This document shows positions 22,861-27,114 of a DNA stretch of 64,000 nucleotides, piece after piece. The stretch is from Geothrix sp. Its GTDB lineage: Bacteria > Acidobacteriota > Holophagae > Holophagales > Holophagaceae. The notes below the pieces were generated by a model that saw only the letters and a program-made list of their open reading frames with translations, was not told where the DNA came from and made no database searches. Each line of letters opens with the position of its first letter. Within the stretch, counting starts at the first letter, position 1. Where the stretch lies: positions 2,344,857 to 2,408,856 of the forward strand of contig NZ_CP126625.1 in assembly GCF_030219325.1 (NCBI RefSeq), in the 5' to 3' direction. The position numbers and the translations under genes are program-made.

Positions 22861-23232
22861 TCAGCCTATCAGATCAGCCGCCGCCAACCGGGCCACCAGG
22901 TCCGTGTTCCTGGGTGGCATGGACAGGCGGAGCATCTCCGGCGCGGTGAACCACCCCCAGGCCAGGGACGTGCGGGGCTCGCCCTGGGTTTCCACGAGAA
23001 AGGGATGGAGGCGGATCGGGCCGTCCAGCACGGGCCAGGGCCGCGCCTCGCAGAGGCCCAGTCCCACCTCTTCCCGCAGCTCGCGGGCCAGGGCCGCCTG
23101 CGGCGTCTCGCCCGCCTCGACCTTGCCGCCCGGAAACTCCCAGAGCCCCGGCAGAACGGCGTTGGCGGGATCCCTCCGCTGGAGGAACCAGCGGTCCCCG
23201 CGCCGCAGCAGCGCCAGGGCCACCTCGGTCAT
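22861..23232 (-). CDS. NUDIX hydrolase (MutT-like, probable 8-oxo-dGTP diphosphatase)
   Basis: A 123-residue NUDIX protein. The full NUDIX box is present: GGKVEAGET (about 37-45), then RELREEVGLG, matching G-x5-E-x7-R-E-x2-E-E-x-G. LPGLWEFPGG before the box is typical of MutT, which cleanses 8-oxo-dGTP from the nucleotide pool. I start it at the ATG at 23232, which overlaps the rnhB stop (ATGA) and follows GGAGGGG. An earlier start at 23313 would lie inside rnhB. It is coupled to rnhB. Confidence 0.88.
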   Translation of the reverse strand: MTEVALALLRRGDRWFLQRRDPANAVLPGLWEFPGGKVEAGETPQAALARELREEVGLGLCEARPWPVLDGPIRLHPFLVETQGEPRTSLAWGWFTAPEMLRLSMPPRNTDLVARLAAADLIG

Positions 23233-24059
23233 GCTTCCCCTCCGGAGGGCCCGTCTCCGCCGGCCAGCAGCGCCAGGCGGTCCGCATAGCGCCGGCGCAG
23301 GGTCTCCACCCACACCAGCTTCAGCCGGCCATAGGCGGGCCTCAGCTCAAGCTCGACCCAGGCCCTCAGCTCGTCCACGGAGGCGCAGCGGGCCAGGCTC
23401 TGGTGCAGGGCCTCGCGCAGATCCTCGTCCACCCGCTGCAGACCGGCCACGGGCGCGTAGCTGATGCGGTGGATGGAGCTCGCCCCCAGGTCCCGGAGCC
23501 GTTCCTGGTGGAGGGCGGTGCCATAGCCCTTGTGCCGGTCGAAGCCGTAGCCCGGGTGGGCGGCCTCCATCCGGACCATCAGGGCGTCGCGGTGGGCCTT
23601 GGCGAGGATGCTGGCCGCTCCCACCGCGCAGCTGAGGGCATCGCCGTCCACCACGAGGCGCTCGGGCAGCCCGGTCCTCGGGCCCTTGTCCCCATCGATG
23701 AACAGCATCCGGGGCCGGAGGGAGAGCTCCGCCACGGCCTGCCGCATGGCCATCATGGTGGCCTCGAGAATGTTCTCCCGGTCGATGGCCATGGGATCCA
23801 TCTCCGCGATCCCGTAGGCCGGCAGCAGGGCCTTCAGCTCGGCAGCGAGGACCTCGCGCCGTTCCGGTTTCAGTTTCTTGCTGTCGCGCACGCTCCGCAG
23901 CACGTGCCCCCACTTCCGGACTGTCTCGGCATCGAGCACCGCACAGGCCGCCACCACGGGCCCGGCCCAGGCGCCCCGACCCGCCTCGTCCACCCCGCCC
24001 CAGGCCACGCCCGGGGGCACGTTGCCCAGATCCCAGTCGAGGGGGTTCACCGGGCTCAT
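23229..24059 (-). CDS. rnhB: Ribonuclease HII
   Basis: A 276-residue RNase HII that removes ribonucleotides from DNA and RNA in hybrids. The active-site motif GVDEAGRG holds D24 and E25, a third acidic residue lies in LFIDGDKGP (D122), and GDALSCAVGAASILAKAHRD carries the last metal ligand. HKGYGTALH completes the family signature. The C-terminal segment beyond about residue 215 is a roughly 60-residue helical extension that most RNase HII proteins lack. The gene leads a two-gene unit with the NUDIX hydrolase. Confidence 0.94.
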   Translation of the reverse strand: MSPVNPLDWDLGNVPPGVAWGGVDEAGRGAWAGPVVAACAVLDAETVRKWGHVLRSVRDSKKLKPERREVLAAELKALLPAYGIAEMDPMAIDRENILEATMMAMRQAVAELSLRPRMLFIDGDKGPRTGLPERLVVDGDALSCAVGAASILAKAHRDALMVRMEAAHPGYGFDRHKGYGTALHQERLRDLGASSIHRISYAPVAGLQRVDEDLREALHQSLARCASVDELRAWVELELRPAYGRLKLVWVETLRRRYADRLALLAGGDGPSGGEA

Positions 24060-24259: not shown

Positions 24260-26302
24260 ATGAGATTCCTCACTCGACTGGTCCTGCCCTGCCTCCTCCT
24301 GGGCACGCTCCTCGCGGCGCAGGAGTCCGCCCTCGCCCCGGCCGTGAAGAACCGGGTGACGGACGCCAGCTTTGAGGTGGTGGTCCCCCGGGCCGACCCG
24401 GCCAAGGATCCGGTCTCCTACGAGAAGGACCTGCCCTGGGACCTCGTCCCGTTCAACCTCCGGAATGATCCCTACGTGTCCATCGGCACCGCCTTCGCCA
24501 TCTCGAAGACGACCCTGGTGACGGCCCATCACGTCTTCCAGTCCCTCCACGCCTCCAGGGGCTACCAGACCTGCTTCATCCGTGATGCCAAGCAGAACGT
24601 CTGGGAAGTGGATCAGATCCTGGCCCTGGATGAGCAGCGCGACGTGATCGAGTTCTCGGTCAAGGGGAGGACCTTCGAGCAGTGGCTCGAGCTTCGACCC
24701 GGGTTCAAGGACAACGAGACCGTCTTCACCGTCGGCAACGCCTATGGAGAAGGCCTAGTGATCCGGCCCGGCGAGCTGATCGGAACCATCCCCGAGCCTC
24801 TGCGAGGCGCCTGGAACCTGCTGAAGAGCAGCGCCGGGGTGAACCCCGGCAATTCCGGAGGTCCGCTCGTGGATCCCCAGGGGCGCGTGGTCGGCGTGGT
24901 CCTGGGGAAGAAGGACAACATCTGCTACTCCCTTCCCACCGAGGAACTGAAGGCCGTGAAGCCCGACCTCGCCCGCTTCTTCAACAAGGTCACCTTCAGC
25001 TTCTCGCTGTTCCCCGAGAAGTCGAGCGCCTTGGAGCGCGCCTACGACGTGCCTCTGCCGCGCGCCTACGCGGAGCTGCGGAAGGAGATCGCGATCAAGG
25101 AGAAGGCGTTCTACTTCAAGTCCATGGATGGGTTGTTCACGAGCCTGGGGCAGGAGCTCTTCCCCTCGAGCGAAGCCAGCGAAGAGGCCGTCGCAGACAT
25201 CCCCACCAGCGGTAATCCAGAAGTCATCTTCCGCGACAACACCACCAAGAAATGGTCGTTCTCCGGCCTCGAGTACAAATCCAACGACCTGCCCAAGAAC
25301 GGACGGATCTCCTATGCGCAGGCCAACGGCGTGTACCTGTTCAAGATCCGCCGGCCCGATGGGCTTCCCCTCGGGGATTTGCTGACGAAGCCGAAGGTCT
25401 CCATGGACCTGCTGCTGAAGGGCGCCAGCGTGTCCCGCACGGTCGGGGGCCAGGCGATCCGCGTCACGTCGTTCGGCGAGCCCTACCAGGTCCAGCCGCA
25501 TGCGGACCGGTTCGGACGCCTCTGGCAGCAGGCCATCTGGTTCACCGCCTACGACGATGGCGTGGTGCTCACCTATTCCACGCTTGTCCCCTCCGGCGTG
25601 GTGATGGCCGTCAGGTTCATCAACTCCTCCTCGCTCATGGAATGGCTCTACGACCTGCCGAAGTTCCTGGACTACACCTATGTCCCCTACGCCGGCAGGC
25701 TGAAGGACTGGAGCGAATTCCTGCAGCACCGGGAGCGCCTCCCGGCCGCCCTCCGGGGCATGACCTTCGACTTCCAGGAAGGGAAGCACCTCCGGTTCCA
25801 GGCCCTCTGGGCGAAGGCGGACCTCGGCCCCGCCCAGATGGAGCTTTCAGCCAAGGCCTTCCTGATCCTCAACATGGGATTTTCGAGGAAGGGCCCGGAG
25901 GTGCTCTGGGATCTGCGCCGGGTGAACATCGCGGAGGATGAGGAGGACAACTACTTCGTCCTGCTGCGGCACATCCACCCCACGCCGGCCATGCCCGAGT
26001 CCGACCAGAAGCGCTGGAAGGAGATCGCCAGACAGCGCCACCCGTACACCAGGCGCACATACGAGGAAGAGGGGGCCAGCCGGATCGCGACGGTCCACCC
26101 GGCGTTCCTCAAAGCGGACACGCCCGCCGACGAGAACACGGACCTGTTCACCGTCTACCTGGCCCGCGTGGGGAAGGTGGAGGACAAGGAAATGCAGACC
26201 CGCATCCAGGGACTCCTCCAGGCCCTCACCCGTTCCGGGGCGAGCCCCTCCAGCCAGGTGGTGCAGGTGCAGCCATCCACCCCGGCGGCAGCCACCCGCT
26301 GA
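24260..26302 (+). CDS. Secreted trypsin-like serine protease with large uncharacterised C-terminal region
   Basis: A 680-residue protein with a signal peptide (cleavage near LLAAQ, residue 21). The first 220 mature residues form a chymotrypsin/HtrA-like fold. The triad is readable: H91 in LVTAHHVF, D128 in ALDEQRDVIEF and S199 in GVNPGNSGGPLVD. No PDZ domain follows. Instead there are about 460 residues without a motif I recognise, rich in aromatic and charged residues, with no further membrane segment. Likely a periplasmic or exported protease or quality-control factor. It stands alone between rnhB (divergent) and a glycosyltransferase (convergent). Confidence 0.83.
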   Translation: MRFLTRLVLPCLLLGTLLAAQESALAPAVKNRVTDASFEVVVPRADPAKDPVSYEKDLPWDLVPFNLRNDPYVSIGTAFAISKTTLVTAHHVFQSLHASRGYQTCFIRDAKQNVWEVDQILALDEQRDVIEFSVKGRTFEQWLELRPGFKDNETVFTVGNAYGEGLVIRPGELIGTIPEPLRGAWNLLKSSAGVNPGNSGGPLVDPQGRVVGVVLGKKDNICYSLPTEELKAVKPDLARFFNKVTFSFSLFPEKSSALERAYDVPLPRAYAELRKEIAIKEKAFYFKSMDGLFTSLGQELFPSSEASEEAVADIPTSGNPEVIFRDNTTKKWSFSGLEYKSNDLPKNGRISYAQANGVYLFKIRRPDGLPLGDLLTKPKVSMDLLLKGASVSRTVGGQAIRVTSFGEPYQVQPHADRFGRLWQQAIWFTAYDDGVVLTYSTLVPSGVVMAVRFINSSSLMEWLYDLPKFLDYTYVPYAGRLKDWSEFLQHRERLPAALRGMTFDFQEGKHLRFQALWAKADLGPAQMELSAKAFLILNMGFSRKGPEVLWDLRRVNIAEDEEDNYFVLLRHIHPTPAMPESDQKRWKEIARQRHPYTRRTYEEEGASRIATVHPAFLKADTPADENTDLFTVYLARVGKVEDKEMQTRIQGLLQALTRSGASPSSQVVQVQPSTPAAATR

Positions 26303-26331
26303 CCAGCGGGGGCTCCGCCTCTGGCACTCCC

Positions 26332-26368
26332 CTCAACACTTCAGGGACTCCCACGCGATCAGCCAGGT
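26332..26368 (-). pseudogene. Fragment duplicating the 3' end of the adjacent glycosyltransferase gene
   Basis: 37 bp match the last codons of the glycosyltransferase gene (26442-26478) at 35 of 37 positions, exactly 110 bp away. Read on the minus strand it encodes TWLIAWESLKC and a TGA stop, the same as the real gene end. Both differences are synonymous (GAG/GAA and TGT/TGC). It looks like the remnant of a duplicated or paralogous gene tail. Confidence 0.6.
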
Positions 26369-26435
26369 CAACCCGGATCTGGACCGAGCTTGGCGCTGCG
26401 GGGCAGCGCCAAGGGACAAGGCCAGACCGGGTTGA
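26368..26435. repeat. Long two-stem hairpin between gene-end copies
   Basis: An outer stem of 14 bp with one bulged A (TCAACCCGGATCTGG at 26368-26382 with CCAGACCGGGTTGA at 26422-26435) encloses a perfect 10-bp inner stem (CTTGGCGCTG at 26389-26398 with CAGCGCCAAG at 26404-26413). The hairpin abuts the duplicated gene tail. It may be a REP-like element and could act as a bidirectional terminator between the convergent genes. Confidence 0.65.
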
Positions 26436-26442
26436 AGCCAGC

Positions 26443-27114
26443 TCAGCACTTCAGGGATTCCCACGCGATCAGCCAGGTATCCATCACACCTCTGAAATGG
26501 CTCCGGTGCGGTCCTGGCCGGTAGATGGCCTGGATGGGGATGTGCGCCCAGCGCAGCTTCCAGTCCGCGGCCTTCATGGCGATCTCCATCTCGATGGCGA
26601 ACCCGGAGGCACGGAGCTGGAGGCGGTCCAGCACCTTCTTGCGGATCAGGCGGAAGCCGCTCTGACTGTCCTCCCAGGTCACGCCGGCGATGCGCCCCAG
26701 GGTCCAGGTGCCCAGGGCGTTAGTCCGCCAGCGCTTGGCGGGGATCCGGGCCCGATCCTGGAAGCGCGAGCCGATGAGGAAGTCCGCATCGGGATGGACG
26801 GACAGATGGTCCAGGAAGCGCTGGAGATCGCCCGGGTCATGCTGGCCATCCGCATCCAGGAACAGGTAGAAATCGAAGTCGTCGGGCTGGAGCCGGGCGA
26901 TGCCGGCCCGCATGGCCTGCCCCTTGCCGCCACCCTTCCCGGGCTCCAGCCGCAGCACTTCCGCACCGGCCGCCGCGGCCACGGCCCCGGTGCCATCCGT
27001 GGAGCCGTCATCCACCACCAGGAGGCGATGGAGGCCGAAATCCTTCAGGCCTTCCAGCACGGGCGCGATGTGCTCCGCCTCATCGTGGGCGGCGATGATG
27101 GCGGCGATCCTCAA
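26443..27114 (-). CDS. Family 2 glycosyltransferase (dolichyl/polyprenyl-phosphate sugar transferase-like)
   Basis: A 223-residue GT-A glycosyltransferase. RIAAIIAAHDEAEH starts the fold, LVVDDGSTDGT (Asp35-Asp36) binds the nucleotide sugar, and LFLDADGQHDP (D87, D89) is the metal motif. DSQSGFRLIRKKVL and a C-terminal basic region are typical of DPM1-like enzymes; no transmembrane domain is present. I assign the TTG at 27114, which overlaps the M61 peptidase stop as TTGA, because no ATG or GTG lies near the conserved start. The open frame upstream of it is antiparallel coding noise. Likely role: glycan or lipid-linked sugar transfer in the envelope. Confidence 0.85.
   Translation of the reverse strand: MRIAAIIAAHDEAEHIAPVLEGLKDFGLHRLLVVDDGSTDGTGAVAAAAGAEVLRLEPGKGGGKGQAMRAGIARLQPDDFDFYLFLDADGQHDPGDLQRFLDHLSVHPDADFLIGSRFQDRARIPAKRWRTNALGTWTLGRIAGVTWEDSQSGFRLIRKKVLDRLQLRASGFAIEMEIAMKAADWKLRWAHIPIQAIYRPGPHRSHFRGVMDTWLIAWESLKC

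Follow-up and report, generated by a model that had tools for sequence, protein, structure and literature searches.

The closest described counterparts of the arrangement reported here are mobile elements that exchange the end of the gene they enter. In fungal mitochondria, mobile ORF elements replace the C-termini of Glomus atp6, atp9, cox2 and nad3 and of Allomyces atp6; according to PMC3630166, the inserted C-terminus is joined in frame, the native one is kept downstream as a duplicate which matches close relatives and differs largely synonymously, and the elements encode homing endonucleases. In Escherichia coli, the prophage e14 integrates site-specifically at a single site, icd, where it supplies the 3' end of the gene and leaves a 163-bp former end behind as a duplicate (PMC6379469). 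The small palindromes known as REP elements likewise lie behind genes, and in four cases the 3' end of a rayt gene together with the downstream REP became part of a BIME (PMC2817692). The layout that we describe for the bacterial genus Geothrix is that of the fungal elements and of e14, minus their proteins: in contrast to the fungal case, a 73-bp hairpin devoid of an ORF is found on a bacterial chromosome and at several genes, and, in contrast to e14, the tails are unrelated to each other and no recombinase is encoded in the insert. At 73 to about 250 bp, the inserts are too short to contain a homing endonuclease gene, and a recombinase would not fit into the 73-bp insert either. We suggest, and would give an even chance to, the explanation that a protein-free, REP-like hairpin element rides with the 3' end of a gene, swapping the resident end and leaving the old end behind. 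Our search of the open-access PMC literature found no report of such a tail-hairpin-tail arrangement in bacteria, which may still have been published.

The window, that is, the whole stretch of 64,000 nucleotides of a Geothrix sp. genome that was analysed, contains the arrangement at a family-2 glycosyltransferase gene (Table 1), along which the last codons and the stop are followed by a 73-bp insert and then by a repeat of the last 12 codons (11 amino acids plus stop). The features from which a sequence-only reading had set out were all recovered, namely a 37-bp direct repeat with 35 of 37 bases identical, two differences which are both silent in the encoded peptide, and, between the tail copies, a hairpin, which we find to be a 73-bp insert with a strong fold. 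The duplication proposed in that reading is hence real, but the roles of its halves had to be corrected: the gene in use ends in the upstream tail, and the tail downstream, taken there as the 'copy', is most readily understood as an end that was displaced. The two differences in the window are by themselves too few to tell which glycosyltransferase tail is native. The start codon of the gene, inferred by eye, overlaps the stop of an upstream M61 peptidase gene. Directly behind the glycosyltransferase gene, many relatives carry rnhB; a trypsin-like peptidase gene lies between the two in 10 of the 36 genomes examined (for G021 and G023, the stretch ends short of rnhB), and a different sequence does so in some others.

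Table 1. Features at and around the glycosyltransferase gene, in window positions.
Feature	Position	Strand	Basis or remark
Family-2 glycosyltransferase gene	26443..27114	-	PF00535, E 2.3e-18 (Pfam); ORF end 26443
Tail repeat, upstream copy, the gene's working 3' end (ACC...TGC TGA)	26442..26478	-	
73-bp hairpin insert, starting directly after the stop codon	26369..26441	-	
Second tail copy (TWLIAWESLKC-stop), taken as displaced former gene end	26332..26368	-	displaced reading rests on rimO
Trypsin-like peptidase gene, between element and rnhB	24260..26302	+	neighbour, outside the element
rnhB (ribonuclease HII)	23229..24059	-	neighbour

When folded as DNA, positions 26360-26445 reach -30.4 kcal/mol (z -5.8; 0 of 200 shuffles as good), with an outer stem (26368-26385/26420-26435), an inner stem (26389-26399/26403-26413) and a GGG loop (26400-26402). 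With simple shuffles as the reference, the sequence between the repeats stands out clearly for its folding in the window (z -7.7) and at locus L182 (-3.7) and only weakly at L174 (-1.9) and L175 (-1.3); the apex CTGC-3-GCAG is exact in the window, L182 and L174, and L175 is a match of the model R2 of a second hairpin family. Paired cells make up 96.9% in the alignment of the first family, where the pair of columns 18-62 is UA seven times, AU five times, CG and GC twice each, and unpaired or other once, and 12 of 20 pairs of the second family (R2) show a double change. Compensatory changes thus keep the fold in both families, and its functional form may be DNA, RNA at the end of the mRNA, or both. 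An Rfam search of 26000-26800 returned two weak matches far under the gathering score, neither of them inside the hairpin. A third hairpin type (GATGCTCTGACGGGT...ACCCGTCGAGCAGAGCATC) was observed in three members of the genus (L097 at G000:C1:606668-606743, L122 and L123), with a stem that seemingly includes the stop codon of a gene and with no evident tail copy.

The arrangement recurs. A search of the genome for the hairpin, as the sequence-only reading had advised, led to a second site behind rimO, again with a copy of the gene tail, and further tail-hairpin-tail loci came from a pattern search and from hand-picked loci. The survey covered 464 kb, made up of the window and, from across the same genome, 20 stretches of 20 kb that were picked before the scan, one of which by chance held the already known ABC permease locus. 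Direct repeats lying less than 600 bp apart, with a length of 22 bp or more and an identity of 84% or more, occur outside an integron-like array at four places, and each pair encloses a hairpin. The places are the glycosyltransferase gene, the ABC permease gene, an acyltransferase-like gene and a tRNA-Arg gene in its 5' part. The window's arrangement is thus more than a product of chance. At L174 (18679-18976), the repeat takes in sequence upstream of the tRNA-Arg gene together with its first 19 bases, the hairpin lying between the copies, so that the arrangement extends beyond coding 3' ends; at L165 (1210-1573), a tRNA-Arg gene has a duplicated 5' region and the hairpin lies outside the repeats. 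Since each of many unrelated genes is followed by its own tail, the earlier idea of a paralogue that lost its body and left the copy as its tail has to be abandoned.

Eight hairpins served as seeds for model R2; six came from the window's genome, and their repeats were part of the reason for picking them. With 150 of 3559 candidates scored, it has at least 17 matches in that genome at E <= 0.01, while the copy number of REP elements is often over 100. Direct repeats of 20-111 bp span 10 of the 17 and none span the other 7, and nine of these ten repeats extend over the 3' end of a same-strand ORF, the tenth (L315) being ambiguous; the genes concerned are glutaredoxin-like, HPPD, pyrH, asnS, rimO, two MacB/FtsX-like permeases, one for an acyltransferase-like protein and one without a family. 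Repeats are likewise present at 6 of the 10 non-seed matches, two of these six having been known before, and at 4 of the 8 independent matches, one of them weak (20 bp, 90%). For comparison, 400 ORF ends drawn at random (from ORFs of 200 aa or more in any frame, some of them not genes) yielded 15 with a spanning repeat. Within 200 kb of G020 there is a single close pair, in which the groEL end, an apparent terminator included, is copied (230/254 bp) around a second-family hairpin and the copy has an internal insertion; 200 kb of G033 yielded three pairs, one being the tail of a Rid-family gene and the other two, by eye, a repeat-rich protein and a noncoding repeat. In genomes from other families of the class, 200 kb of G039 held no close repeat pairs and 200 kb of G042 held five, which by eye come from a duplicated tRNA (one), a CRISPR-like array (two) and tandem repeats (two); the CRISPR-like array (L304, 19233-19957) has a 61-bp period.

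The integration sites of integron cassettes (attC) are folded imperfect hairpins with extra bases on one arm and RYYYAAC ... GTTRRRY ends. The folded imperfect hairpin and the extra bases on one arm are shared here, and the genome also possesses a chromosomal integron-like array (G000:C1:1960001-1983300; L179, L191) with 12 listed repeats of ~125 bp and GCCTAAC...GTTAGGC ends, adjoining a 276-aa tyrosine recombinase, which models of integron integrase and XerA match below their cut-offs. By eye, the ends of the window hairpin agree with the R-box consensus at 6 of 7 bases each, these ends are absent in the second family, and an identity as attC is doubtful because the ends fit poorly. The Y1 transposase model (PF01797) has no match in the window's genome (control found in 5 of 14 genomes), on which ground mobility of the RAYT/REP kind was rejected, and inspection of alignments A1 and A2 by eye shows no GTAG tag at the palindrome's foot; the hairpins are REP-like, yet fail these two tested REP features, and they also differ from REP elements in that gene tails are duplicated at several unrelated genes. 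Reverse transcriptase (RVT_1) is matched in 15 of 47 genomes of the genus and not in that of the window, and a diversity-generating retroelement was discarded for this reason and because the differences include C/T and are not adenine-specific. One of the genome's six tyrosine recombinases was examined, and no link to the hairpins was found. None of these searches identified an enzyme, which counts against the explanation that we suggest. Carriage by a phage or plasmid was rejected, as the cores of two hairpins have no exact match in viral contigs and 26332-26478 has no match in plasmids.

It had been proposed from the window alone that the copy was once under coding selection, and such selection, of a recent date, was borne out by the relatives, in which the same duplication is present: between glycosyltransferase tail and copy, 45 silent and 18 non-silent differences were counted in 17 genomes, the opposite of the random substitutions that would have marked the pattern as chance. 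The 17 are those compared among 19 filled genomes, G009 (copy broken by a deletion) and G008 (split across two contigs) being excluded. Under random substitution, a silent share of ~26% is expected (binomial P 5e-14, with related genomes taken as independent and stop-to-stop changes scored as silent). Twelve of the 17 copies are free of non-silent change, one being identical to the gene tail and the rest totalling 36 silent differences; the other five have non-silent changes, and, together with the broken copy of G009 outside this count, they argue against an exchange of ends. Intact copies show 2.8 differences from their own gene tail and 4.8 from the gene tails of other genomes. For eleven loci measured in three genomes (nine in the window's genome and one each in G020 and G033, with L314 and L315 outside), the counts are 29 silent and 10 non-silent, and six of the nine in the window's genome are identical or have silent differences alone. 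Intragenomic gene conversion alone was rejected as it would not yield mainly silent differences, although local homogenisation is visible.

Evidence on which end is native comes from rimO, compared in 12 genomes (two more failed the anchor pattern), where the hairpin is present in four of the genomes read (G000, G060, G007 and G016). The downstream copy end of G000 is closest to the hairpin-free sister G013 (86%) and that of G060 to the hairpin-free sister G025 (96%), and it follows that in both genomes the hairpin-bearing gene end is of foreign origin and has displaced the resident one. Recombination with an allele of another lineage, the second origin that had been offered for the copy, explains it, foreign and native ends being separable in these two genomes; as with e14, the gene end in G000 and G060 comes from the element. 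The rimO gene ends that bear the hairpin are alike across species (98% between G060 and G007, 90% with G000, 78% with G016). The copies of G007 and G016 match no relative closely (68 and 62%), which counts against an exchange of ends, as does the finding that the unit is more alike than the gene body in the pair G060-G007 alone (96.4 versus 91.6%) and less alike in the other five pairs. Over their first 30 bp, both tails of a genome agree fully or but for one base, species-specific variants included; because of this near-identity, and because glycosyltransferase tails of the same genome are more alike than those of different genomes, local duplication or conversion takes part. Hairpin and displaced tail meet at the same base in all four rimO carriers and, by eye, at the same base for each gene in the carriers read, which again counts against an exchange of ends and makes one founding event per gene possible. 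Homogenisation on a local scale and, for each gene, one founding event are thus likely to belong to the history of these tails.

At an ftsX-like gene, tail-element-tail is found in 9 of 25 genomes read, with a hairpin unlike that of the window's genome, and in G012 the displaced tail, judged by eye, resembles that of its relative G005 while the gene end is another allele. The end of this gene is a hotspot (L226, L236, L244, L245, L248) at which species differ, several hairpin families occur, and both tandem arrays of hairpin units and tail-element-tail-element arrays are found.

With 26260-26700 as a DNA query, 36 of 60 genomes were matched, all of the same genus, and the hairpin model, applied to 47 genomes of the genus with 103 candidates scored in each, gave lower bounds of at least 22 genomes with a match at E <= 0.01 and at least 19 with a high-scoring match (at least 75 bits) sited at the glycosyltransferase gene. 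An exact-pattern scan of named genomes, among which records close to the window's genome may be absent, returned 11 stretches, 10 from Geothrix/Holophagaceae and one from Actinoallomurus spadix. Reading the glycosyltransferase locus by eye in 37 genomes, we found 19 filled, 5 with remnants and 13 empty. The distribution of the insert is patchy: on a tree of four neighbouring genes, the state 'filled' takes 11 changes compared with a mean of 12.6 after shuffling, a value as low being reached in 118 of 500 shuffles. Among 17 genomes, the hairpins are more similar than the four neighbouring genes in 135 of 136 pairs (89.6 versus 77.5%), and the two similarities are not significantly correlated (Spearman 0.14, p 0.10); selection on the fold could be another source of this likeness. 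G018 is hairpin-free inside a filled clade, which suggests that the unit can be lost via recombination between the tails; G018 may then be a deletion product and hence no clean empty site. G023 has a partial hairpin followed by at least 15 kb of other genes with no second tail seen, and a by-eye check for an integrase showed sequence resembling a sugar-utilisation locus. G001 and G021 hold remnants or arrays of a second unit at this locus, and at L059 (G035) a third tail copy directly adjoins the displaced one, as would be expected had the hairpin of a second unit been deleted between CTGGCT repeats.

The tail-hairpin-tail architecture and its recurrence at many genes are well supported. On the explanation that we suggest, the unit would consist of the last codons, the stop and the hairpin; arriving from another strain or species, it would recombine with the resident gene, pairing and exchange taking place within the last 20-250 bp, so that the gene would run on into the incoming end and hairpin, and the resident end would stay behind the hairpin as a direct repeat. 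The gene would remain intact and the insertion would therefore be harmless, and the unit could be deleted again by recombination between the two tails. The exchange probably proceeds by recombination within the gene end. We infer that it is homologous (Campbell-like, or by invasion of a strand into the end of the gene), that it is promoted by the hairpin, and that events at the glycosyltransferase gene follow the rimO pattern, and the origin of each gene's first tail-hairpin-tail is likewise deduced. That the hairpin mediates the exchange, as the sequence-only reading had supposed, is plausible from the conservation of the fold and the recurrence of the hairpin. It is tempting to go further and to speculate that an undescribed class of mobile DNA is present, in which protein-free hairpin 'gene-end cassettes', each made of the last codons, stop and hairpin of one gene, move between Geothrix species, invade the homologous gene end and replace it in frame, displacing the old one, such that many housekeeping C-termini have been exchanged independently of their gene bodies; this joint claim is tentative, and we would expect it to fail sooner than to hold.

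The arrangement might also arise within one genome if replication slipped back from a REP-like hairpin and doubled [tail + hairpin], the last hairpin being lost and ordinary interspecies homologous recombination reshuffling the tails afterwards. Consistent with such slippage, G029, G014, G068, G001 and G021 show tail-element-tail-element arrays or what remains of a second unit, tandem hairpins stand 72 bp apart at 3.285 Mb, and some hairpins have no tail copy (G069; 7 of 17 R2 matches). In many carriers, however, the second tail runs straight into the post-gene sequence of hairpin-free relatives (G026/G006 versus G018; rimO), silent differences are in excess, and at rimO two genomes have the native end in the copy and a foreign one in the gene, which renders tandem duplication rather unlikely. 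The 3'-UTR alternative, in which the hairpin is a mere RNA structure protecting the end of the mRNA and the duplications are unrelated accidents, is consistent with a fold conserved as expected of RNA and with the position of most R2 matches close behind a same-strand ORF stop (exceptions are, e.g., L313 and L315); it is quite improbable given spanning repeats at 10 of 17 hairpins against 15 of 400 random ORF ends, and at four (one weak) of eight R2 matches that were neither seeds nor known before.

Two further explanations invoke an enzyme. Transposition of the hairpin by an unknown enzyme, aimed at gene ends and producing long target duplications of about 20-250 bp, would account for precise ends, for one hairpin family being found behind several genes and for its same orientation to the duplicated end in 9 of 10 repeat-flanked cases. 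We nevertheless consider it improbable: repeat length ranges from 20 to about 250 bp, the genome has yielded no Y1/RAYT transposase, pure target duplication predicts random instead of mainly silent copy differences, and the hairpin-free G018 inside its filled clade, as a possible deletion product, offers no clean empty site. If, on the other hand, the loci were scars of integrative elements whose tyrosine recombinase uses a gene 3' end as attB and restores it, as e14 does in icd, the same gene-end logic would apply, and six tyrosine recombinases are at hand in the genome. Yet the tails of different genes have no evident common sequence, the window insert measures 73 bp with no ORF listed inside, a covarying hairpin recurs, the glycosyltransferase and ftsX-like loci read hold no larger element between the two tails, and in G023 the partial hairpin gives way to other genes for at least 15 kb with no second tail seen; scars of this kind are thus very unlikely.

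Should the gene-end exchange that we favour prove true, bacteria would possess an analogue of the homing elements that replace C-termini in fungal mitochondria, one that brings no enzyme along, and patchy duplications of gene tails with mainly silent differences would find an explanation. Stimulation of recombination by the hairpin would then become testable in cultivable Geothrix strains, and the 3' ends of genes such as rimO may differ in history from the remainder of the gene.
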